From: a virus | Length of the DNA: 45,635 bases | IMG/VR virus record: IMGVR_UViG_3300025736_000050 | Location: 1 to 45,635 of that record | Direction: 5' to 3' (one strand) | Shown here: positions 1-45,635 of the stretch, piece after piece | Numbering within the stretch: the first letter of the stretch is position 1 | How the letters are laid out: each line of letters begins with the position of its first letter | The notes under the pieces: model-generated | What the model was told of the DNA's origin: nothing | The model's database searches: none | What the model saw: only the letters and a program-made list of their open reading frames with translations | Made by a program: the position numbers and the translations under genes

Positions 1-469
1 ATCGAGAGCCGTTAAATCTCAGTGGAGCAATAGGGAATTTGTAATCGTTGATCTTAAACGTACAGCCAAAGCCGGTATGAAACGTACAGTCATAGTCGGT
101 ATTGAACGTACAGTCATAGTCGGTATTGAACGTACAGCCAGAGCCGGTATTGAACGTACAGCCATAGCCGGTATGAAACGTACAGCCAGAGTTGGTATTG
201 AACGTACAGCCAGAGTCGGTATTGAACGTACAGCCAGAGCCGGTATTGAACGTACAGTCATAGTCGGTATTGAACGTACAGCCAGAGCCGGTATTGAACG
301 TACAGCAAGAGTCGGTATTGAACGTACAGTCATGAATCCAATTAAAATCTAACACTAAACTATTTTCTACTGAAGAGAATGTGTTTGTTTTTTCATCCCA
401 TATAAAATCATCCAAGGATAGCGGTTCCCCGTTTTTCAACACTCTTTTTTGCACTTCTAACTTATCCAT
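1..469 (-). CDS. CTFNT octapeptide-repeat protein, N-terminal part (runs off left edge)
   Basis: The gene starts at the ATG at 467-469, with an AAGGA Shine-Dalgarno about 9 nt upstream, and stays open to the window edge. It begins MDKLEVQKRV and has about 47 ordinary residues. Twelve 8-residue units of the form C-T-F-(N/H)-T-(G/D)-(S/Y)-(G/D) follow from Cys48, and the reading then passes into the unique sequence starting at INDYKF. The same unique sequence recurs at the right end (45067-45635), so on a circular molecule the full protein would have about 230 residues. Regular Cys, Thr and Phe positions suggest a solenoid-like or cross-linked fold, but the function is unknown. The other two open frames across the array (VRSIP-type on this strand, GIERT-type on the other) are shadows: only this frame joins non-repetitive, protein-like ends and has a ribosome site. 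Confidence 0.8.
   Translation of the reverse strand, partial: MDKLEVQKRVLKNGEPLSLDDFIWDEKTNTFSSVENSLVLDFNWIHDCTFNTDSCCTFNTGSGCTFNTDYDCTFNTGSGCTFNTDSGCTFNTNSGCTFHTGYGCTFNTGSGCTFNTDYDCTFNTDYDCTFHTGFGCTFKINDYKFPIAPLRFNGSR
56..335. repeat. 24-bp tandem repeat array, left copy
   Basis: About 12 head-to-tail units of 24 bp lie here. Each has a constant core (ggtattgaacgtacag on the + strand) and a variable 8-9 base part such as gccagagcc or gtcatagtc. The unit length is a multiple of three, so unit gain or loss keeps the minus-strand CTFNT protein in frame. Unit order differs from the right-end copy although the flanking sequence is the same. Confidence 0.95.
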
Positions 470-479
470 TTCGCTATCC

Positions 480-503
480 TTCCGCCCTGTTCGGGCTTGT
501 TAG
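480..503. repeat. 24-bp direct repeat flanking the octapeptide-repeat gene (copy 1)
   Basis: These 24 bases are identical to 45072-45095. They contain a small inverted repeat (GCCC, 5-nt loop, GGGC). On the minus strand they supply part of the leader, ending in GGCGGAA just before the repeat gene start. They also overlap the stop codon of the upstream short reading frame (500-502). Together the two copies bracket the repeat-protein gene on the circular map. Confidence 0.85.
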
Positions 504-789: not shown

Positions 790-2103
790 CTAGTTTGCAT
801 CCAAGAACCTCATATTATTTCCTTCAAACTTCAGTTTAATATCACCAGTCGGACCATTCCTTTGCTTGGCAACTATAAGCGTAGCCAGACCATCATGTTG
901 TGCCTTATCCTTCTTGTAATAATCGTCACGAAGTAAGAGCAGAACCGTGTCCGAATCCTGTTCTAAATTCCCAGACTCTCTCAAGTCAGAAATAGCAGGA
1001 CGATGATTAGTTCTCTCATCAGCCATTCGGTTCAACTGACACACCACAACAATCGGGATATCAAGTTCTCTGGCCAATAGTTTAATCAGCCGAGAACATT
1101 CACCTACGGCCTCGTATCTCTTACCCTTACCCTTAATCTCCATAAGTTGCAGATAATCTATCACGACCAGTTTAATATCATGGCTTCTCCGTAGCATCCG
1201 ACATTGACTTCTCAACCCATACGGCGTCAACTTAGGATAGTCACATATAACCAGCGGTAACATAGACTCTTCTGCCGCGACAGATTCCAACATGGTTATC
1301 CCAACGTCACCCAAGTACGCCTTCTGCATCTGGTAATAGCCAAGCTCAGAGCGTGCGGCTAAATGCCTCTCTATCAAAGAGTCGGCAGACATCTCCAGTG
1401 AGAACACCGCCACCGCCCCCCCAGCGGCAGCGACGTTAGTAGCAATGTTAATGGCAAGGATAGACTTGCCCATAGACGGACGACCAGCTACGACGATCAT
1501 CTCGCCAGCATGAAGACCACCAACTACGTCATCGACATCACGGAACCCAGTAGCCAATCCCTCAGCACCATGCGTGGCCCGACTCTTCACAGTATTAACT
1601 ACCCTGGGTATGATAACAGAGATATGTTCAGGTTTAACTATTTGCTTCTTTTCAGCTATTCGTAATAATGCAGATTCAGCCTGGTCAGCAATCACAGATA
1701 AGTCAGCAGCAGGATGATATGCAGCGTCAATCAATTGCCCTGCCATTCTGATATACGACCGCAGAGTGGACTTTTCCTTCACACTCTTAGCGTAGTAGTT
1801 TCCATTAGCAGAAGTAGGAACACTCTCAGCTAGTGTTATCAGATAATCAACGCCACCAACGACATCAAGTGATTCAGTCTTATTCAGCATATCTCTCAGC
1901 GAAACAAGGTCTATCGGGATATTATCAGCTTGTAGTGACTTCATTGCCTTAAATATGATCTGATTAACATTAAGATAGAAATCGTCAGCAACTAACGTGT
2001 CGAATATATCTGGCCGGACTTCATCGTCTGTGTCAAGGATTATACTACCCAGAGTGCATGACTCTGCCTCTGGATTTTGGGGGGGGAGTTTTTCAGCCAT
2101 CAT
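790..2103 (-). CDS. dnaB-like: DnaB-type replicative DNA helicase
   Basis: This 437-residue protein has the two-domain layout of DnaB. An N-terminal helical domain opens with LPPQNPEAE, as in many DnaB proteins. A RecA-like C-terminal domain carries Walker A AGRPSMGKS (residues 206-214) and a Walker B segment VVIDYLQLM near residue 310. An Arg-rich segment (LRESGNLEQDSD) follows, as in replicative helicases. It would form the hexameric ring that unwinds DNA at the phage fork. The start overlaps the stop of the nuclease gene upstream (ATGATG), so the two are probably translationally coupled. An alternative ATG lies one codon later. A run of eight C residues occurs at codons 6-9. The length is normal for a phage DnaB. 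The family call is firm. Confidence 0.95.
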   Translation of the reverse strand: MMAEKLPPQNPEAESCTLGSIILDTDDEVRPDIFDTLVADDFYLNVNQIIFKAMKSLQADNIPIDLVSLRDMLNKTESLDVVGGVDYLITLAESVPTSANGNYYAKSVKEKSTLRSYIRMAGQLIDAAYHPAADLSVIADQAESALLRIAEKKQIVKPEHISVIIPRVVNTVKSRATHGAEGLATGFRDVDDVVGGLHAGEMIVVAGRPSMGKSILAINIATNVAAAGGAVAVFSLEMSADSLIERHLAARSELGYYQMQKAYLGDVGITMLESVAAEESMLPLVICDYPKLTPYGLRSQCRMLRRSHDIKLVVIDYLQLMEIKGKGKRYEAVGECSRLIKLLARELDIPIVVVCQLNRMADERTNHRPAISDLRESGNLEQDSDTVLLLLRDDYYKKDKAQHDGLATLIVAKQRNGPTGDIKLKFEGNNMRFLDAN

Positions 2104-3092: not shown

Positions 3093-3248
3093 CTAATCCT
3101 TTCCAAAAAGATACGGCAGCAGCAGGCTGGAAAGGTCGGGTTATTTAAGAAGTGAACCCACCGCCACCGTATGTTTCTAATTGTTCAAAATGCGGTGACA
3201 GGGGAAAACATTAAACCCCACCACCGCTGCTGCAAATGGGAGAAAACT
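3093..3248. other. intergenic stretch with long-range inverted repeat
   Basis: No gene with a credible start is seen here. GCAGCAGC and GCTGCTGC arms near the two ends could pair over about 100 nt on the minus-strand transcript. A start-less short frame on the minus strand ends in a Gly-rich FTS sequence and may be a remnant. Confidence 0.3.
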
Positions 3249-4160
3249 CTAGGTAAACATCTCTTCGGAGTTGCCACCGGTTACTTTCAAGTGTGCTTCG
3301 TATGCTTCTTTTGTCTTCTTGTGGCAAATGGCCAGTGAAGTCCCGGACATCCGAGTCGTAGTATCAAACGATACGACATTACCATCCTTACCCTTAAATG
3401 ATGTCAACTTAATGAGTTGTGTTTTCATAGCTGCCTTATCACCATTGTTCATTTCAGTGAGACAAGCAGTAATCTCTTTGCGTTTATCAGCATCACCAGA
3501 CTTATCAGCAGGGGGCTTATTCTGTGTACCACCGCCACTACCACCACCGTAAGTTACGCGGTGAATCAGGTTGGCGTCGCCACCGTGATCTGCGATAATC
3601 TTAGCCAGCTTATCAGTCTTAATACCTCGCAATCCAAGCATCTGCTTGATACCATTACCAATACAGATATGCCTCGCAGCGGCCCGGATATCGTTCTCGT
3701 TAATATCCTCTAACGCCTTCCAGCCGCCCGCTTTAGTGAAGCCAAGGAACTTATCCCTTGTCGAATAAACGCCCTCACAGGGCAAGCTACGGCCCCACAA
3801 AAAGGCAGTAGCAGAGCAGATATATGTGTACCACCGTCCTTCACCGTCAGAACCGGAGTTCTTCTTCATAGTCCAGTTATCAAAGGTGAATGGCAGGTGC
3901 TTCAAGAACCTCTCCGCACCAGCACTTGATAGACAAGCTGTACCGTCATGGTCTATCCAATCTCCTTCATGGCAAATGTTTATGAACGTAGCCATTATTG
4001 CGTTCTCTGCTCTCTTAGCGTTCCTAGCCGCCCCTTCCAGTTGCGTAACAAACGAGTCATCAAAGAGTTGTAGATTATTTACACCCGCCTCCGAACTTCC
4101 ATTCTCAATAGGTACAATCGTACCATCTTCTACATTAGCATCAATAAATTCTTCCGACAT
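3249..4160 (-). CDS. unrecognised protein, possibly a recombination or annealing factor
   Basis: From the ATG at 4158-4160 the protein has 303 residues. A good ribosome site (GGAAAGGA) precedes that ATG; an upstream TTG at 4202 is less likely. The N-terminus is acidic and the central part folded-looking, including HICIGNGIKQMLGLRGI. A Gly-rich linker (YGGGSGGGTQN) and a charged C-terminal part follow. The middle motif, ending in an LGLR sequence, resembles sequences seen in phage proteins encoded next to Cas4-like nucleases, and the Gly-rich linker is reminiscent of single-strand-binding or annealing proteins. The position immediately before the nuclease and helicase supports a DNA-metabolism role. 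No catalytic signature is visible, so function is inferred from context only. Confidence 0.6.
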   Translation of the reverse strand: MSEEFIDANVEDGTIVPIENGSSEAGVNNLQLFDDSFVTQLEGAARNAKRAENAIMATFINICHEGDWIDHDGTACLSSAGAERFLKHLPFTFDNWTMKKNSGSDGEGRWYTYICSATAFLWGRSLPCEGVYSTRDKFLGFTKAGGWKALEDINENDIRAAARHICIGNGIKQMLGLRGIKTDKLAKIIADHGGDANLIHRVTYGGGSGGGTQNKPPADKSGDADKRKEITACLTEMNNGDKAAMKTQLIKLTSFKGKDGNVVSFDTTTRMSGTSLAICHKKTKEAYEAHLKVTGGNSEEMFT

Positions 4161-4252
4161 GATAAATTCCTTTCCAGTTATAACCTTTTTGATTCTTTCC
4201 AACAGGGTAATTATGGACCATAGAAACGAGAAGTCAAATTAAAAATGATAAA

Positions 4253-7200
4253 TTATTTGAAAGGCTTTTGCTTTTCTATTTCTAATTTGGCTTCAACAGA
4301 CGCCATCCTCTTAGCCATCAATACCCGTAATCTGTCAGACCTGCTAATCTTACCCTGGTTCTCCAGCCGTTTAATGCCAGTCATTCTATCACTAGCCTCA
4401 GAAGTAGCAGCCTTCCTCATATTTTCCAACAATGCGACATCCTTAACTCCTGGATTGTCTATATTAAACTTATAGTATTTCTTGTGTATCTCAAGGTCGA
4501 ATAGCTTACCGGCCAATCTGTGCATATCATATATCTCTTCTTTAGTAAGCTGTATTGCAGGAGGCACAAGATCATCCTCTCTGTCTTCAGCAGTCACAGT
4601 TCGCCCCATATCTGAGAAATGTTTCTGGTTATTGGGATGGTTGTGGTTCCATTTCGATAACATCCACACAGCGTTCCATCCCTTACTGGTCCCTTTCATA
4701 TCTTTCTGTAGCCGTACCGGATTGAACATTGCTCGCATAAACATTCCTGTCTCTGTATCTCCAGGCCGTTCTAAATCCTCACCCAATATATCCGGTATTG
4801 GCATCATAGTACCAACTTCAGCAAACCCCAAATCATATCTAGTACGCCTCTTGTAGTTCTCAAACCAAGACTCAGTTTTGTCTGTCCTGCTATTTCTTAT
4901 TTTCCTATCAGTGGCTTTGAATGCAGAGCCAAAAAGATTAGGTACGTGCATTCTGAAAAAGTTAGTCTTCAGCTTGTCGCCATACGTTGCCCAGTCTAAG
5001 ATAGATTTATAGGCATCGCCAAGACCTTTTACAAATGTCTGATTCGATATAAGACCAGCCGTTCTTGATGTGAATTGCGCACCAAGGTCGTCTATCTTAT
5101 CTTTCAGTTCATCCTTCTGTGCGGGTGTCATCTCAGATGTATCAACATCTAATAGCTTAGATAAATCGAATAAACCTTGCACGAAATTCACACCTATCCC
5201 TAGAGTTACAGACCAAGGGCCAGCGTTCTCGTAACTATGCCAACCACCAAATAGATAGAAACTTCCTCTTGGGGTTATCTGTCTATTAGTTCCTTCCGCT
5301 GATTTCCTTACAGGGCGATAGTCCCTTGTTGGAGTAATCTTCATATCTCTGACCAGAGGCCACAGCATAGCAGTTGCCGCAATACCAGCCATTGAGTTAG
5401 TGAAATCTCTTATCGCTTGTTGTGCGGTGTATTTCTTCCCGGTAATAAGTTTTTCCATTCCCTTAACGCCCATTAAGGGCATCCCAAAGACGCTGTTCTC
5501 AATCCCTCTTGCTGTAATCTGTATCGGGGTCTTAGCAAACATAATCAATAATGTCGTGGGTTTCATACCCAATATTTCCGCGTCCCTAAGTTTAAGCACT
5601 TGCTTCTCAAGACCACTGCTGGGTAATTGAAAAGAAATCTTATACATCTCTTGTTCTCGCAATGCCCTCTGCCATGACTCACTGCCTAAATCTTCAAGTT
5701 CATTATCCATGTAGTCTTTATATGTATGTTCCTCATCAAACGTCATGCCTTTAGCTTTTGCATTTCTAGTGGCAGCTTCAGCCACAACCGCATGAGCATA
5801 CACAGTCTTAATTAACTGGTCGCCAAAGGCTGTTGGTGCAGTACCACCCTTCCTGTAAAGAGTACCGAATAATCGCCCTATCTTAGTCCCCTTTAGCTTG
5901 CCTTGGACACCAAAAGGGTAACTCATTAACTTGCCAAACGCTTTGCCATTTAATGCCTGATTAGAATACATCCAGACATTCTTAGAATCTTGAAGGTTAG
6001 CAGTTTGTATCTCGAAGGCAGGAACCTCATACCAATAAGAATAAGCAGCGTTCTGAATAGCCCTCTTCCATGTTACTTTACTGAAAAACGCCTGCCACAT
6101 AGCAGGGGCTTCTTTTAATGTTGAATCAGCAATAGACTTAGCTTTAGACACTTTAGATAAGCCCACTCTGGCTGGTATTTCTAAAGCGGTCTTCACAATT
6201 AAATCACCTATAGCGTAAAATCCAGACATGGCATTGCGAATAGGTGTTGCTGGTGCGCTCATAAGATTATTACGCAACAACTCTATATAAGCGTCCCACA
6301 TCCCAGTCGAAGAGCGAGTCATGTTTATCTCTCGCATGATTCTATACGCAACTCGAATGTCATCCTTTATCTCTCCGTCAAGATTTCTTAGGTCAACGCC
6401 CCACGATATGATTTCCTTTCTCAAATCACGAATCTCATCCATGTCAGTTTGTAATATTTTCTCTATGGCCTTAGCACTTTTCAATGCGTCTTTTTCACGG
6501 CCTTCTTTTACCGCTTCAGTATAAGCTTTCCTTTCTGTTTCTAAGGCTATCCTGCGTCTGACCGGCATCCGTACCGCCGCATTTATTAACAGCTTATGTA
6601 TTGCCCTACCCATCTGCATACGACCAGCACCCATAACTAGTATCTGTGCTTCTGTTGATCTTATGTCACCACGCCCTGCAAATAATGATATAGAATATTC
6701 TATCTTTTCGTCGTTACCACTAACAAACCCGTCTAAGGCGGCATCCTCAGCAATGATCTGCATAGCAGCCTCTTCTTCAGGTGTCGATGGAATCTTACCA
6801 TCGAATGCCCTCTGGGTGAGTTCGGCTACCTGTGCAGGGTCATTTAATATCGTCGCAGCACCGGCCCATATCTCAGGAGCAGTCTTAGTTGGTGGTGGAC
6901 GCAAAGCCACCGCAAACATTCTCTTAGTCGCAGGTATTAAACCTGGGTTCCTCTGCCTAGTTGGAGGGATTGGACCATCTTCTTCCATTAGTCTTCTGTA
7001 TCTTTGTAGAGGATTTTCTGGAGTTCTTCTGGTTACACCTTCAGGGGGAGGCTGGTTCATGTTGACTTCAGGCGTAGCTTCACCCTGTTCACGTGGCCCA
7101 ACAAACTTTCTCTCAGGTCTTCGCTTAGGCTTCTTTGTCTCTCTGGATTTCTTTGCTGGCTCTTCTAATACTTTGCCGATAACATCACCAGACTCACCGA

Positions 7201-35819: not shown

Positions 35820-36563
35820 ATGAATAAAACAGCAATTTACATGCGGGTATCTACGGGCCATCAATCTACTGCTAGTCAGCGACCAGATATAGAACGGTGG
35901 TTAGAGCTATCACATATACACCCAGAAGACCAGATTTGGCTTGAGGATACCGCCTCCGGGCGTTCGCGGAGTGGTAGGCCACAATACTACGATCTGGAGC
36001 GATTGGTCTCCAGCGGCAACATAGAGCGTGTGGTAGTCTGGCGTGTTGACAGGTTGGGCAGGTCGATGATTGAAGCTTGTAAATTCTTCCAGTTGTGCAA
36101 GGATAACCAGGTCAACATCATCTCAGTGAGTGAGGGCATAGATAACTCAACTGAGCTGGGCGAGCTTATAACGAACATTATGGCCTCTTTTGCTCAATAT
36201 GAGGCCGATATGAGGGCCGAGCGTATTCGGGCCGGTATATCTGCTGCCCGTAGGTCTAATTGTCCAGAGTGTAAGGCCAAGTGTAAGCCTACCCCAGACC
36301 CGCGGAACCAATACCCCAAAGAGTTCCACTACCAGTGCAAGGTGTGCAGTCACGAGTGGAAGGGTAAAAAGTGGGGCGGTAGTCGTAAAGGCAGAAGGAC
36401 TAAACTAACCGATGCTCACGTCAAGGCTATCAATAGTCTGGCCATGAATGGTATGAAGGCTCCGACCATCGCTAAGACTCAGAATATCAGTATATCCACA
36501 GTTTATCGGGCTTTACGTATGCTTGGTCATTTACCAGAATTGCCTTCGAGTCGGGCCATGTAA
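35820..36563 (+). CDS. serine recombinase (resolvase/invertase) with zinc-ribbon insert
   Basis: The 247-residue protein has the catalytic serine Ser11 in YMRVSTGHQ and the WRVDRLGRS and FAQYEADMRAERIRAGI motifs of the resolvase/invertase catalytic domain and E-helix. Between this and the C-terminal helix-turn-helix (about 196-235) there is a zinc-ribbon-like insert with Cys148, Cys151, Cys173 and Cys176 (CPEC and CKVC). The insert replaces the usual short linker. Such enzymes recombine DNA at short dyad sites. Its target may be the control region or the exchangeable cassette; none is proven. Its 3' end overlaps the convergent NeuA-like gene by 37 bases. Confidence 0.9.
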   Translation: MNKTAIYMRVSTGHQSTASQRPDIERWLELSHIHPEDQIWLEDTASGRSRSGRPQYYDLERLVSSGNIERVVVWRVDRLGRSMIEACKFFQLCKDNQVNIISVSEGIDNSTELGELITNIMASFAQYEADMRAERIRAGISAARRSNCPECKAKCKPTPDPRNQYPKEFHYQCKVCSHEWKGKKWGGSRKGRRTKLTDAHVKAINSLAMNGMKAPTIAKTQNISISTVYRALRMLGHLPELPSSRAM

Positions 36564-37243
36564 TCTACAGCCATATCAAAATCGTGCTGGGTGTCTATGT
36601 TTACTGAGTCGCCTGGCTGTTGGACAATACAGCGGCGATCTGTACCCCAAAAGGCGTGCGGGTCGTCGCTTGTGTTTGCATCCATCAATACTTCAGTCTT
36701 GACAACTGCTGCTGCGCCATCTACGTAGTAATACTTAGGTAATTCCTGCCTGCGATACACCTGATTGTAGATGAGCTTGCTTATCTGATCGTCCTTATTC
36801 TTCTTGTGCATGAAGAATGGATGCTGCTCACTCACTTCTGTAACTGTCTGGACCGAATCACAACCTGTCTCTTTGATCTTATCAATACATGCCTTGAGTA
36901 TGCCCGGCTTGCGTACTACATTCGGGTACAGTAGGGCCACATATTCATACGAGTCGGGCTTGCGTCTATCTACGGCATGTCTTAACACCATATCTATCGG
37001 CGTATCATCTTGGCATAGACATTCAGGGCGGTCGATTATTAAATCCGTATTACAACCATATGCCCACTGGTACTTCTTTAGATATTCTGGCATATTTGTA
37101 GTCAGGACGGGGTAATATCCTTCGCTGATAGAGTAGTTCACAGCTATCTCTATCAGGGTCATGGGTCCAATCCTCTTAACATTCTTATTCTCCAACCCTT
37201 TACTACCTGCTCTGGCTGGTATTATTACTACTGTGTCTTGCAT
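36527..37243 (-). CDS. neuA-like: NeuA-type CMP-nonulosonate synthetase
   Basis: The 238-residue protein carries the cytidylyltransferase signature IPARAGSKGLENKN (8-21), a central RRQELP-YYYVDGA segment and the late DSVNIDTQHDFDMA motif of the NeuA/LegF/PseF family. It would transfer CMP to a sialic, legionaminic or pseudaminic-type acid, making the activated donor for a transferase. The gene follows the radical SAM gene on the minus strand with a 3-nt gap, and the Maf-like gene lies further upstream, so the three probably form one operon. Together with the NeuB- and NeuD-like proteins this covers synthesis, acylation, activation and transfer. The 3' end overlaps the convergent recombinase gene. 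Confidence 0.93.
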   Translation of the reverse strand: MQDTVVIIPARAGSKGLENKNVKRIGPMTLIEIAVNYSISEGYYPVLTTNMPEYLKKYQWAYGCNTDLIIDRPECLCQDDTPIDMVLRHAVDRRKPDSYEYVALLYPNVVRKPGILKACIDKIKETGCDSVQTVTEVSEQHPFFMHKKNKDDQISKLIYNQVYRRQELPKYYYVDGAAAVVKTEVLMDANTSDDPHAFWGTDRRCIVQQPGDSVNIDTQHDFDMAVDYMARLEGNSGK

Positions 37244-37246
37244 TTC

Positions 37247-38632
37247 TTAATCTCCTAAGTTAAATCCATGCTGTCTGCGGTGTTTCTTGTCTCTATCATC
37301 GAACCCCTTGAAGTTGGGTCCGTACAATTCTTTAATCTGGTCGTCTGTCATCTGTGGTTTGACCTGCTTATTAACATACTCAATCATGCTATCGTGTATA
37401 CGAGTGAGAATATCTTCTGCCATCCATTCCCAATCTCTCACTGCAATTGGCCACATCAGATTGATAAGGAAGTTATTGCAGTCTCCAGTTTCGCACAATG
37501 CTTCGATGTATTTTTCTTCGGTAATAAACTTAGCTTTAATCATACCGAACACTTGCTGATATAATTGCGTCTTCGGATATGGCGTGGCATACATCAATGA
37601 CGATAGCGGTATCTGATTATCTATGCAGAAGTTTTGCGTTTCCATTATCGTGTCTGGCCCTTCGCCCGGATAGCCAAAGATAAATGAAGTCGGGCATAGC
37701 ATACCTGCCTCTCTTGTATCTCTTATGACTTGTGCTGCCTGCTCTGCTGTCTGCTGCTTATTCATAAGCTTGAGCATCTTATCGCTACCTGATTCTATCC
37801 CATAGCTCACTGATACACAGCCGGACGCTTTCATCTCTTTAAGCATATCAAGGTCGCAGATACCTACCCGGCCAGTGCATGACCATTTGAGATTGGGTAA
37901 TCTGTTCCTTATCAACGCACAAATATTATAAACTCGCTGTTTGTTAATCACGAAACAGTCATCTTGAAATGATATAAAGTCTAGGTTGAATTTATCAACC
38001 ACCCATTCCATGTCATAGCCAAGAGGAACAACATCGAAGCTTCTCCACTTCGTGCCACTGAGCCGATAGCAGAAGTTGCAATCATAAGGACATCCCCTTG
38101 AAGTCACCATGTCCATGTCTCTACCGAAGCCAACTACTGGGTTTGCAAGATATACATTCATTGGGAATAATTCGTATGGCGTGATAGGCAGGTTATCCAA
38201 GTCTTCCGATATTGGGTCTTCCGGCTCTATCCCAAACACCTCTCTGAGTATCTTATCCTCACCTTCTCCTGCTATCAGGAAGTCGTGCGGTATATTCCTC
38301 TCTACGATCTTAGTACATGCAGTGGCAAGACCACCACCCAAAACTATCTTAGCATCAGGCAACGCCTTCTTGATTAGTGGAACCATACGCTTCTGCCATA
38401 CATATGTAGTCACCATGCCACCGATACCGATAAACTTGGGTGACTGTTTCTGTAGCTCAGTAATCACCATATCATCTGTCATACGCAAAGCGTTAGCATC
38501 TATCACACCAACATCAATGCCAGCATCAATCAACACAGCAGCGATACTTCCCAGTCCATGTGGAAAGTTACGTGGCTTATCTTGTAATCGTATCGGAGGG
38601 TTTATCAGTGTTATGTCTTTACAGTATCCCAT
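37247..38632 (-). CDS. cobalamin-binding radical SAM enzyme
   Basis: From the ATG at 38630-38632 the protein has 461 residues; the longer frame uses a TTG. The N-terminal 150 residues form a B12-binding-type domain (ITLINPPIRLQDKP, then an alternating strand-helix pattern ending in LIAGEGEDKILREV). The radical SAM core has CxxxCxxC as CPYDCNFC (Cys181, Cys185, Cys188), plus DDCFVINKQ and a GxIEpGS-like YGIESGSDK motif. B12-type radical SAM enzymes often methylate or rearrange sugars or sugar phosphates. Its place between the Maf- and NeuA-like genes suggests it modifies the nonulosonic sugar or the acceptor (inference). Confidence 0.88.
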   Translation of the reverse strand: MGYCKDITLINPPIRLQDKPRNFPHGLGSIAAVLIDAGIDVGVIDANALRMTDDMVITELQKQSPKFIGIGGMVTTYVWQKRMVPLIKKALPDAKIVLGGGLATACTKIVERNIPHDFLIAGEGEDKILREVFGIEPEDPISEDLDNLPITPYELFPMNVYLANPVVGFGRDMDMVTSRGCPYDCNFCYRLSGTKWRSFDVVPLGYDMEWVVDKFNLDFISFQDDCFVINKQRVYNICALIRNRLPNLKWSCTGRVGICDLDMLKEMKASGCVSVSYGIESGSDKMLKLMNKQQTAEQAAQVIRDTREAGMLCPTSFIFGYPGEGPDTIMETQNFCIDNQIPLSSLMYATPYPKTQLYQQVFGMIKAKFITEEKYIEALCETGDCNNFLINLMWPIAVRDWEWMAEDILTRIHDSMIEYVNKQVKPQMTDDQIKELYGPNFKGFDDRDKKHRRQHGFNLGD

Positions 38633-38637
38633 CTTTC

Positions 38638-38934
38638 TTAATCTCCACAAAAGTGTGCCACTTTCTTATTATCCAGACCCTTTTTAATTATCCCTTGCAA
38701 TCGCTCACGAACGGCTGCTACCTTCATATCTCCAAACTCAAACAGTAGCCTCTCAAGAGTAGCCAGAGCCTTTCGTGCTGCTACAGCAACCTCTTCCGTA
38801 TTGGCAAGTTGTGTCTCTAATTTATGCACTCTATCTTCATGCTTCTTATGAGACTTAATCAACTCAGCGTGCTTTTTTTCCTGTCTTTGCAACGCACCTA
38901 TCAACGCTTCTTTTGTTTTGTATTGTGGTTTCAT
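38638..38934 (-). CDS. coiled-coil protein of unknown function
   Basis: The 98-residue protein begins MKPQYKTKEALIGALQRQEK and is a Lys/Glu-rich coiled coil with Ala-Arg-Lys segments and a basic C-terminus ending KKVAHFCGD. It follows the 41-residue gene and precedes the radical SAM gene by 5 bases. No functional motif is visible. Confidence 0.55.
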   Translation of the reverse strand: MKPQYKTKEALIGALQRQEKKHAELIKSHKKHEDRVHKLETQLANTEEVAVAARKALATLERLLFEFGDMKVAAVRERLQGIIKKGLDNKKVAHFCGD

Positions 38935-38964
38935 TACTCGTTATCCTTTCGCTCTTATTCCTTG

Positions 38965-39090
38965 TCAGCAATTGCCTTTTTTGCCGCCAGTTTTTCGTCC
39001 TTTGGGCTTAGCTGTTCCGCGACCTTTTCCGCCGCCTCTTCCGTCTCTTGGCCCATTACCTTTCGGGCCTTTTCCATCTTTGTTAGCCAT
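38965..39090 (-). CDS. 41-residue Gly/Arg/Lys-rich protein (overlapping frame also open)
   Basis: An ATG at 39088-39090 with AAGGAG at good spacing gives MANKDGKGPKGNGPRDGRGG and a Gly/Arg/Lys-rich tail ending KKGNC. An ATG at 39093-39095, in a different frame, gives a 46-residue Lys/Glu/Ala helix beginning MKWLTKMEKARKVMG. Spacing favours the first, and the Gly/Arg pattern resembles small phage nucleic-acid-binding peptides. The second could be expressed too. Neither has an assigned role. Confidence 0.5.
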   Translation of the reverse strand: MANKDGKGPKGNGPRDGRGGGKGRGTAKPKGRKTGGKKGNC

Positions 39091-39102
39091 TTCATTATCT
39101 CC

Positions 39103-40887
39103 TTACATAGTTTTATTCTTTAATCCGTCACGCATTTCACTGATTATCTCATACATCTTCTCCGCTGAGTTCTGGATGGTAGATATATATTTAATGTCAC
39201 GACCAAATCTATGTTCTTTAATCTTATGCTTGTCCCACTTGTCTTCGTTTCGTTTACATATCGTATCTTCCCATCTCTTAATAAACTCCGCTATCCCGCT
39301 GAAGCTCTCTATTCGCGGGGCAAGGTGCATCAATCCATCTAGCACCTTCTTCTCCTTGATAATAATCGCTCTCGATTTATTCCACAATGTCTCGTCCTCA
39401 AACTTCCCTTCCAAAATCATATAAGCATTCACAATCTTCTTGTGAGATATGATAAATCTATCCAACTCACCCAGATATTTATCAACACTCTTAAAAACTT
39501 CGTCCATCTCTATCCCCTGCTTCACTAAACCGGGGAAGGATATTTCGCCACTATTCTTATATGTCTTAATCGCATCTTCCAGTGTCATCTCTTCGCAATG
39601 TGCTTTCTTTACGCTCTTGGGATGGGAACAATCAACGACAGTACCATCAAAGTTACGCCACATCATTTCAAACTGCTTCAGATAACTCACCATCTGCTCA
39701 TCTGAATAAACCGGGTCACCTGATTTATTCTTACACACTCTTAACATCCGATGTTGTGGTGACACCATTAACCTCGATGACTCCTTCCATTTGTGATGCT
39801 CATATACGGCCTCAGCGTAGTACTTTTCCTCCGGGAACGATAGATCATTACCAATCATAATAATGTTCTCAGCACCCAGCCATGCGGCAACCTGGAAACT
39901 CAGGTGTGCTACTGTGGAACAGCCACTGATATAGTCCTCTCGCTTCAATCCACACAACTCATTGAGCCATCCATCTGAGAAGAAACACAACTTACCACCC
40001 ATCTTCTGGATAGCTTCAATAACAGCCGGATTGACCTTTGGGTCCATTAGAAATACGACACCCTTGCATTGTTCAAGTGTAACATCATCCAGAAACCGGC
40101 CTGATATCTCATGGTAATCTAGTGCCGTAACATACGCTGGCTTGATACCATTGGCCAATAGCGGCTTGAGCATAGTTAAGCATGTCACGAATGGCGGCAT
40201 CTCGCTGAGTTGATTCAGTCCGGGCAGAACATCGTCAACACTTGGGCCTGCCGCCACCGTGACAAGCGTGGCACTCTTTTCTTTTACGCAATCTTTTAAG
40301 TTCTCAATCGTTGGGTTATGCAGGTAGAAAAATGTATTGCCCAGGATATTATCAGCCGTTACTTTGCTGTTCGTCATTTGGGTGAGCATTAGCGTCTTCT
40401 GTGCATCGGCATAATCCATAACTGTTCGTGCGGCATTGGACCAAAACACATTATCATAATTCCATATCGGCTTGACAACTTTAACGCCACGACTCAATCT
40501 ATCAACAGACAATTGCAAGCGAATAACAATCTCACTTGGGTCTTCCGTGTCAATCAGAATAATTCTATTCGTCAATATTGCCACTGATATATCTACGCGG
40601 CTAAGCGCATATCTCAAGATAGAGGGAGATTTCTCCAGAAGTATTATCACTTCGTCGTCCGAGGTCTTATCAATCAACTTCTCCAAGAATACACCGTCAC
40701 ATATTCCAGGTATGATATAAACCCAAGGGTCATCATTGACTACATCCATCACATCTGGATAGATATTACCGGATGGAAGTTTCTTACGAGTCTTTGCATT
40801 GAGCAATTTCTCTCGTATGTCTTCACCGATAACGTCCCAGTTAGATTGTAGAATCTTTGTTCGTCGCTCGCGCTTTGGTTTACTCAT
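39103..40887 (-). CDS. maf-like: Maf/DUF115-type nonulosonic acid glycosyltransferase-like protein
   Basis: The 594-residue protein has an N-terminal domain and a central Maf/DUF115-type domain with AAGPSVDD (212-219), TALDYHE (254-260), GCSTVAHL (322-329) and IIMIGNDLSFP (342-352). The C-terminal helical part is longer than usual. Characterised Maf-type proteins transfer pseudaminic or legionaminic acid from its CMP-sugar to Ser/Thr residues of flagellin. Here a NeuA-like synthetase lies downstream in the same unit. With NeuB- and NeuD-like proteins in the same genome, the phage can be read as encoding its own virion or host glycosylation system (inference). Confidence 0.88.
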   Translation of the reverse strand: MSKPKRERRTKILQSNWDVIGEDIREKLLNAKTRKKLPSGNIYPDVMDVVNDDPWVYIIPGICDGVFLEKLIDKTSDDEVIILLEKSPSILRYALSRVDISVAILTNRIILIDTEDPSEIVIRLQLSVDRLSRGVKVVKPIWNYDNVFWSNAARTVMDYADAQKTLMLTQMTNSKVTADNILGNTFFYLHNPTIENLKDCVKEKSATLVTVAAGPSVDDVLPGLNQLSEMPPFVTCLTMLKPLLANGIKPAYVTALDYHEISGRFLDDVTLEQCKGVVFLMDPKVNPAVIEAIQKMGGKLCFFSDGWLNELCGLKREDYISGCSTVAHLSFQVAAWLGAENIIMIGNDLSFPEEKYYAEAVYEHHKWKESSRLMVSPQHRMLRVCKNKSGDPVYSDEQMVSYLKQFEMMWRNFDGTVVDCSHPKSVKKAHCEEMTLEDAIKTYKNSGEISFPGLVKQGIEMDEVFKSVDKYLGELDRFIISHKKIVNAYMILEGKFEDETLWNKSRAIIIKEKKVLDGLMHLAPRIESFSGIAEFIKRWEDTICKRNEDKWDKHKIKEHRFGRDIKYISTIQNSAEKMYEIISEMRDGLKNKTM

Positions 40888-44427: not shown

Positions 44428-45060
44428 TTATGCCGCACGTATCTCACGAACAATATTTCTAGTAGCGGGCTTTTGGTTAGCTTTCAATTCTGTAACAATT
44501 CCTATTGAGTTAACCTCATCCAAAACACCTACGCCCTTATCCACAGACTTGACAACATCAACTAAGGCGGTTTTATATCGCTTGGCTAAAATACCGCCAA
44601 GGGCAGCGAGCAAGGTTCCAGCAATACCGGAGATAGTTCCCCAAGGAGGCGGGATGGCAGGCGATACCGCTACAAGCGTTTGCCCCGCCGCCTCTATCTC
44701 GTTCCCAATGTTAGCGTTACCTTCTGCCGCAATCTTAGCAATAGCCGCCTCTGCGCCCGTCACAGCCTTGTCGATCTTAGCCTTGACTTCCAACGCCTCA
44801 GACAGTTTCTCGGCCACCATAGTTAATGTCGCTTCTATCTTTGCGGCGTCGTCTGAGGCTAATGCTGGGTCGTCAGCGGCAACCTGTAAGTTTGCCAGCG
44901 TTTGCTGTAAGGTGGCAACATCATCGTCGATCAACACAGACTGGTCCTGTGTCATGCCAAGAAACGCAACCAATCCATCAAGCCTTTCCTGTGATGTTCC
45001 ATTGCACCCCATTACTCCAATCACTGCAACAAGCAGCACGATCATCGTTAACTTTTTCAT
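44428..45060 (-). CDS. lipoprotein
   Basis: The 210-residue protein begins MKKLTMIVLLVAVIGVMGCN, with a signal peptide and lipobox Cys19 (VMGC) followed by Asn. A long Ala/Asp/Gln-rich helical segment leads to a second hydrophobic patch (WGTISGIAGTLLAALGGIL, about 145-163). The mature protein is likely anchored in a cell envelope membrane. It follows the octapeptide-repeat gene, and the shared 24-bp direct repeat supplies part of its leader. Possible roles are lysis (spanin/holin), superinfection exclusion or envelope modification. Confidence 0.7.
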   Translation of the reverse strand: MKKLTMIVLLVAVIGVMGCNGTSQERLDGLVAFLGMTQDQSVLIDDDVATLQQTLANLQVAADDPALASDDAAKIEATLTMVAEKLSEALEVKAKIDKAVTGAEAAIAKIAAEGNANIGNEIEAAGQTLVAVSPAIPPPWGTISGIAGTLLAALGGILAKRYKTALVDVVKSVDKGVGVLDEVNSIGIVTELKANQKPATRNIVREIRAA

Positions 45061-45066
45061 AACTAC

Positions 45067-45635
45067 CTACTTTCCGCCCTGTTCGGGCTTGTTAGTTACC
45101 TGTATCTCTTTGCCGAACCTATCCAGCCACTTAGCCAAAATTTCGACGTAAAATTCATATTCTTTTACCTGTCCAGGCGTGTAGCTGTTTTCTTCGGCGC
45201 ACCGCTTTATGTTTTCTTGCCACCATTTAACAGGTTTTTCGATGCAACCCGAACGGATCAGGCTTGGCCCTGATACTTCGATGTAATATCGAGAGCCGTT
45301 AAATCTCAGTGGAGCAATAGGGAATTTGTAATCGTTGATCTTAAACGTACAGCCAAAGCCGGTATGAAACGTACAGTCATAGTCGGTATTGAACGTACAG
45401 TCATAGCCGGTATTGAACGTACAGCCAGAGCCGGTATTGAACGTACAGTCATAGTCGGTATTGAACGTACAGCCAGAGCCGGTATTGAACGTACAGTCAT
45501 AGTCGGTATTGAACGTACAGCCAGAGCCGGTATGAAACGTACAGTCATAGTCGGTATTGAACGTACAGTCATAGTCGGTATTGAACGTACAGCCAGAGCC
45601 GGTATTGAACGTACAGTCATAGTCGGTATTGAACG
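45067..45635 (-). CDS. CTFNT octapeptide-repeat protein, C-terminal part (5' end runs off right edge)
   Basis: The frame is open from the right edge down to a TAG at 45067-45069. It contains about 12 CTFNT units, then a unique C-terminal domain of about 88 residues: FPIAPLRFNGSRYYIEVSG, a Cys/Trp segment, a helical KEYEFYVEILAKWLDRFGKE stretch and the end QVTNKPEQGGK. It is the same gene as 1-469, and at the first 119 bases the two copies are identical. Unit order differs, so the array varies between copies. The stop precedes the lipoprotein ATG by 6 bases. Confidence 0.8.
   Translation of the reverse strand, partial: FNTDYDCTFNTGSGCTFNTDYDCTFNTDYDCTFHTGSGCTFNTDYDCTFNTGSGCTFNTDYDCTFNTGSGCTFNTGYDCTFNTDYDCTFHTGFGCTFKINDYKFPIAPLRFNGSRYYIEVSGPSLIRSGCIEKPVKWWQENIKRCAEENSYTPGQVKEYEFYVEILAKWLDRFGKEIQVTNKPEQGGK
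45072..45095. repeat. 24-bp direct repeat flanking the octapeptide-repeat gene (copy 2)
   Basis: Identical to 480-503. Here it encodes the last residues of the repeat protein (NKPEQGG) and leads into the ribosome site of the lipoprotein gene. Confidence 0.85.
45343..45635. repeat. 24-bp tandem repeat array, right copy
   Basis: This array of the same unit as at 56-335 contains about 12 units before the window ends. The unique flanking side is identical, but unit types occur in a different order (GSG- and DYD-type units alternate more regularly here). It marks the overlap used to judge the molecule circular. Confidence 0.95.

Follow-up and report, generated by a model that had tools for sequence, protein, structure and literature searches.

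The window analysed here is a phage contig, the IMG/VR virus record IMGVR_UViG_3300025736_000050, at its full length of 45,635 bases. Both of its ends lie inside one minus-strand gene, which is read from 469 to 2 and then from 45635 to 45067 and encodes a conserved 46-aa N-terminus, at least 12 C-T-F-x-T-x-x-x units and a small C-terminal domain. The occurrence of the 24-bp array at both contig ends is far above chance, and the gene probably spans the contig junction of a circular or permuted genome. In the left-end frame, the complete N-terminus is followed by 12 CTF units up to the contig edge, and in the right-end frame 12 units are followed by a unique C-terminal domain and a stop. The N-terminal domain (MDKLEVQKRVLKNGEPLSLDDFIWDEKTNTFSSVENSLVLDFNWIH; 331..469), a solenoid N-cap that is conserved across the family and modelled by AlphaFold2 with a pLDDT of 96-98, starts with the ATG at 467-469, and a Shine-Dalgarno-like GGAAGGA (477..483, minus strand) lies 8 nt before it. 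The left array copy (57..332; 11.4 copies of the 24-bp unit, delimited by repeat detection, frame and copy alignment) is complete from N-cap to C-cap, with the turns DSC GSG DYD GSG DSG NSG GYG GSG DYD DYD GFG; the C-cap and the start of the C-terminal domain at 2..56 are a second copy of 45289-45343. The right array copy (45344..45635; 12.2 copies) runs past the contig edge and has the turns DYD GSG DYD DYD GSG DYD GSG DYD GSG GYD DYD GFG. The C-terminal domain (SRYYIEVSGPSLIRSGCIEKPVKWWQENIKRCAEENSYTPGQVKEYEFYVEILAKW...; 45067..45343, from translation; also found on other solenoids) closes with the stop at 45067-45069. An earlier note on this DNA had proposed a real minus-strand protein read through the array, with a normal N-terminus and a ribosome site, about 12 CTFNT units and a unique C-terminal domain, and the frame, start, ribosome site and stop located here agree with it in each of these respects.

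The upstream gene encodes a DnaB-like replicative helicase (790..2103, minus strand), and the downstream gene a predicted small lipoprotein (MKKLTMIVLLVAVIGVMGC...; 44428..45060, minus strand) with no family match. The commonest annotated neighbours in the relatives described below were DnaB, primase-helicase, Sak4, dUTPase, DnaD, SSB and UvsX, and none of the commonest neighbour families comprised virion genes. A hairpin-forming 24-bp direct repeat, CTAACAAGCCCGAACAGGGCGGAA, stands just before the array gene (480..503, minus strand), and an exact second copy at its 3' end (45072..45095, minus strand). Repeats of at least 20 bp bracketed 4 of 23 single-copy family genes but only 6 of 290 other ORFs (p=0.0035), and this enrichment suggests cassette-like exchange of the family genes.

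Comparison of the two end copies showed that positions 1-119 equal 45288-45406 exactly and that the first mismatch falls at 120/45407, the position that the earlier note had given. The two copies differ by 16 bases, all of them within the aligned arrays. The note's statement that the same flanks carry different unit orders was right as to the orders; only the C-terminal flank (56 bp) and 63 bp of array are common to both ends, as the right copy leaves the contig before the N-terminal flank, and its full length is not given by the contig.

The earlier note had suggested a search for the same repeat in other phages, and it was found there. Scans of IMG/VR with a degenerate motif returned 34 and 39 stretches, placing the family in more than 35 other viral contigs; in about 85,000 bacterial and archaeal species genomes the same family gave 3 stretches, 2 of them in MAGs of the Methanofastidiosum group. 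Common to the members is an N-cap (...RVLKNGxPLxLDxFxWDExTxTFSSxExxLVLDF) followed by 4-25 period-8 CTFxT units, and the window protein has both of these features, by which the family is defined in this analysis. When the window protein was searched by sequence against Pfam, NCBIfam, PHROGs and the PDB, all matches were due to chance or low complexity; none of the curated families in Pfam, NCBIfam and PHROG covers the repeat or the N-cap, and phrog_20516, considered as a candidate, does not match the window. The family is one that is easily found by motif and has neither a curated model in the searched libraries nor a solved structural match. A tblastn search of phages with the window protein (P0001) produced no matches, probably as a result of low-complexity masking, whereas queries with the C-terminal domain did. 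Five genomes (L008, L020, L024, L039 and L042) carry two array genes in tandem, and the long flanking identity of the L008 and L020 pairs suggests recent gene duplication.

Family members end in one of several ways. Some close with a VVVRRDIYEVIEL cap. Others run into a domain of about 140 aa that also occurs in Dulem virus 31 and Tetrasphaera phage TJE1 and is fused to BspA-type LRRs in Riemerella phages. Another type ends in a RyR domain (L023), and another in the window's own C-terminal domain. Most members have the C-cap CVVVRRDIYEVIEL...KLN..GY, which is common but not required; it is absent from the window, where the array ends CTFKINDYKFPIAPL and continues into another domain, and likewise from L074. 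The window C-terminal domain was also found on hexapeptide left-handed helices (L054, L055, L060 and MT835567) and on GGxFx arrays (L057, L059 and Vibrio phage 1.081.O). The phage hexapeptide proteins resemble the window protein in the C-terminal SR..GC..W..EY domain and in the layout of a repeat solenoid followed by a C-terminal domain, but their array is an LbH hexapeptide array and their N-terminus is different. The closest full-length relative, L074 (IMGVR 3300033143_006358), agrees with the window protein in its N-cap, in its period of 8 and in its C-terminal domain (42% across the part that aligns), but its octapeptides are TITAGDN-type (TITAG) units rather than CTFNT. In L023 (1757-5455), the RyR-ending array protein lies beside genes for NAMPT (3098-4582) and a PRPP-synthase-like protein (4631-5455), an NAD-rebuilding pair that may mark a counter-defence neighbourhood. 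The Dulem virus 31 protein (L048, 2590-3588) combines the ~140-aa domain with a different array of period 8 (AQLASSGD); its record, 35.8 kb long, is assigned to Microviridae, apparently by a taxonomic error.

The earlier note held that the array was changing in the sampled population or within the molecule. We searched IMG/VR for relatives and obtained three contigs, L018, L010 and L025, from two other metagenomes. In L018 (14.4 kb), the left unit order was matched over 333 of 333 bp and continues into the C-terminal domain; DSC is preceded there by a DYD unit, at the place of the N-cap in the window. Aligned with the contiguous window sequence, which carries the right copy, L018 had 16 mismatches in 14,425 bp, all 16 at array positions, and the remaining 14 kb were identical. 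In L010, 5 of 6 mismatches fell in the array and 1 outside it (window 474), and in L025 all 4 fell in the array and 0 outside. The arrays of L010 and L025, which come from two samples, start WIHD-GSG-DYD, whereas the left copy of the window starts WIHD-DSC. Pooled over the three contigs, the array had 25 differences over about 432 bp and the backbone 1 over 30,472 bp (p=6e-46 as counts).

The array is thus either hypervariable or misassembled. The anatomy of the gene, the family and the differences between contigs are solid. Different array states do stand on near-identical contigs, as the note would have it, and population variation is likely but not proven, because every array state was read from assembled, presumably short-read, contigs. 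On these contigs we consider real hypervariation of the array in the population probable. The rather unlikely, though still appreciable, alternative is an assembly artefact, by which each genome has one fixed and perhaps longer array and the differing copies are mosaic paths through a de Bruijn graph; in that case the population variation would be spurious, but the protein and its family real. Consistent with an artefact, at least 10 contigs of the family break off within the array (L007, L009/L013, L010, L011, L018, L022/L035, L025, L036, L038 and the window), and the window ends have no exact overlap, while contig 32286_001057 closes by a clean 107-bp overlap inside its array. Fungal repeat domains with high internal conservation (HIC) have, moreover, been recovered from long reads and not from Illumina-based assemblies, in which they are unreliable (PMC12222747). 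Against it, the unique C-flank and its GFG unit are the same in both window copies and in L018 while the units joined to them differ (DYD or GYD), the left order recurs over 333 bp in a contig of a second sample, the same alternative N-side start is seen in L010 and L025, and the unit differences among family members are certainly real. L030/L031, which had appeared to have the array at both contig ends, proved to be one gene split by locus boundaries and was rejected. The gene also serves as a warning that phage genomes assembled from short reads are liable to be broken or scrambled at repeat genes of this kind.

The manner in which units change was examined at the codon level. In the window arrays, 4-fold silent sites were 0.000 different between units, and about a third of the residues differed. 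In arrays from other phages, core codons vary from one phage to another yet are invariant within any single young array, and the exposed codons mostly keep the third base constant while the first two vary. Across 38 arrays, the replacement/silent ratio (N/S) was about 0.21 in the core and about 1.07 in the exposed loop. In arrays with no silent core change, the exposed codons had 56 N versus 4 S (omega about 3.6, p=0.003), a pooled figure for a 'young array' set that was picked for low silent change in the core; the window alone, with 10 N and 0 S, was not significant (about 0.12). Arrays whose fixed core codons differ show the same choices of residue, namely K/D at position 4, G/S at 6, S/Y/W at 7 and D/N/G/Y at 8. 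The units thus show concerted evolution and, in the pooled data, apparent diversification of the exposed surface, the HIC mode. That the array is a neutral minisatellite, expanded and shuffled by slippage, with a unit variety that has no function beyond frame and fold, would fit the 24-bp units, the identical silent sites and the short homogeneous blocks; it is nevertheless improbable in view of the purifying selection on core codons, the excess of replacements at exposed codons and the recurrence of the same residues in independent arrays. A diversity-generating retroelement target was rejected for want of a reverse transcriptase in the genome, none being present among the Pfam matches of 35 window ORFs or of a further ORF set. 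Lag analysis of the position-4 charges gave z=2.5 at lag 2, a hint of two units per coil that was non-significant after multiple tests.

AlphaFold2, run with the left copy and 24 relatives, yielded a model with a short strand every 8 residues (pLDDT 87, pTM 0.81), and the array is confidently predicted to fold as a beta-solenoid. The earlier note's Cys-rich solenoid with in-frame unit variation corresponds well to this predicted Cys-ladder solenoid. Within units, Cys was conserved at 94%, the second Thr at 94% and Phe at 100%, the Phe figure being built into the unit selection. From this conservation, the core would hold Cys, Phe and the second Thr, with positions 4 and 6-8 exposed; a core with reduced Cys would also fit a cytoplasmic protein. 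Foldseek with the model of the left copy found nothing better than E 0.4 in the PDB, where the nearest folds include EfsQnr (E 0.4) and AlbG (E 0.7), both non-significant, and the fold matches to ice-binding proteins, which bind ice with a flat face of repeated Thr, were likewise non-significant. In BFVD, the matches were A0A8S5N6F1 of Myoviridae sp. ctsip2 (E 2.7e-4), itself an uncharacterised protein of 71 aa, and, weakly, a DUF7666 protein (E 0.06, prob 0.80); a Pfam scan of the array proteins gave no DUF7666 match. AlphaFold2 on the array plus C-terminal domain with 2 sequences gave a pLDDT of 51 and no usable fold.

The pentapeptide-repeat proteins (Qnr, MfpA, AlbG) are cytoplasmic short-repeat beta-solenoids, some of which are DNA mimics; they have a period of 5 (A(D/N)Lxx), in contrast to the period of 8 (CTFxTxxx) of the window protein. 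With this period and no Pfam match, the window protein was rejected as a pentapeptide repeat. It might still be an acidic rod that occupies a DNA-binding site in the manner of Qnr and AlbG, as a DNA mimic or a solenoid that binds gyrase or nucleoprotein. The net charges of the window arrays (-8 and -11), the non-significant nearest PDB folds and the location of the gene among replication genes are all compatible with this role, but the charge varies across the family (in several arrays it is close to 0 or +1, and K and D alternate at position 4), the period is 8 rather than 5 and Pfam detects no pentapeptide repeat, so that we regard such a role as improbable. The replication-gene neighbours argue for an early cytoplasmic protein and not for a surface or receptor-binding role, and the surface role suggested in the earlier note finds no support in a gene that follows DnaB and has its relatives among replication rather than virion genes. 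A surface or virion protein that binds a receptor or glycan is very improbable: among the beta-helical repeat proteins of phages there are many tailspikes, to which the fold similarity is weak and non-significant, but the early-region context in the window and its relatives, an N-terminus with no visible signal peptide and sequence searches that returned no similarity to tail proteins all oppose it. The tail or receptor-binding candidate was accordingly rejected, the gene not being among virion genes and the searches run giving no similarity to tail proteins.

We tentatively favour, at somewhat short of an even chance, an early intracellular phage protein of recognition or decoy function with a shuffling binding surface. 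Such a protein, early and cytoplasmic, would consist of the N-cap, the beta-solenoid of 8-residue units and the small C-terminal domain. Slippage or unequal recombination may add, remove and homogenise its identical 24-bp units, and the variety in exposed residues would be kept by selection, as the pooled data suggest, making the lateral surface a quickly reshuffled binding face. Its most likely task would be to bind, as an inhibitor or decoy, some host-cell partner that evolves fast, such as a defence protein or a protein of a competing phage, and the interchangeable C-terminal domain may serve as a common functional or docking module. The fold of this protein is predicted; its mechanism of change, partner and function we infer.

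HIC repeats have been described in the WD40 domains of the fungal NLRs het-d/het-e (PMC12222747). Those repeats are kept near-identical by concerted evolution, have a few hypervariable exposed codons, are polymorphic in length and order and are badly reconstructed from short reads (PMC12222747). In the window arrays, too, the units of one gene are near-identical at silent sites, and the phage arrays probably resemble HIC repeats in the other respects as well. The difference is that HIC repeats form beta-propellers of much longer WD40 units within an NLR, whereas the phage array is an 8-aa solenoid; Pfam detected no NBD or effector domain of NLR-type architecture in the window protein. By analogy, the phage array may represent an HIC-like mode of change in an 8-aa solenoid rather than in a WD40 propeller. 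A broader and somewhat doubtful proposal is that phages carry modular intracellular recognition proteins, in which interchangeable solenoids (5-, 6- and 8-residue, LRR) are set on a few common C-terminal domains, the octapeptide solenoid being a hypervariable and quickly reshuffled repertoire that follows a target in the host or a rival phage, whereas the genome around it remains clonal. If so, phages would share a trick of fungal immune receptors, an internally identical repeat surface with quickly reshuffled exposed positions in a clonal genome, and the infected cell would then be expected to contain an as yet unseen partner that evolves fast.

Elsewhere in the window, sugar or cofactor genes occupy 36527-40887, encoding a cytidylyltransferase (36527-37243), a B12-binding radical SAM protein (37247-38650) and an MptE-like protein (39103-40887). 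NeuB and PglD/hexapeptide matches were also found in the window, the NeuB ORF lying outside 36527-40887, and the set is possibly one for nonulosonic acid. A serine resolvase/invertase gene (35820-36563, plus strand) was located amid small plus-strand ORFs at 34.2-35.8 kb.
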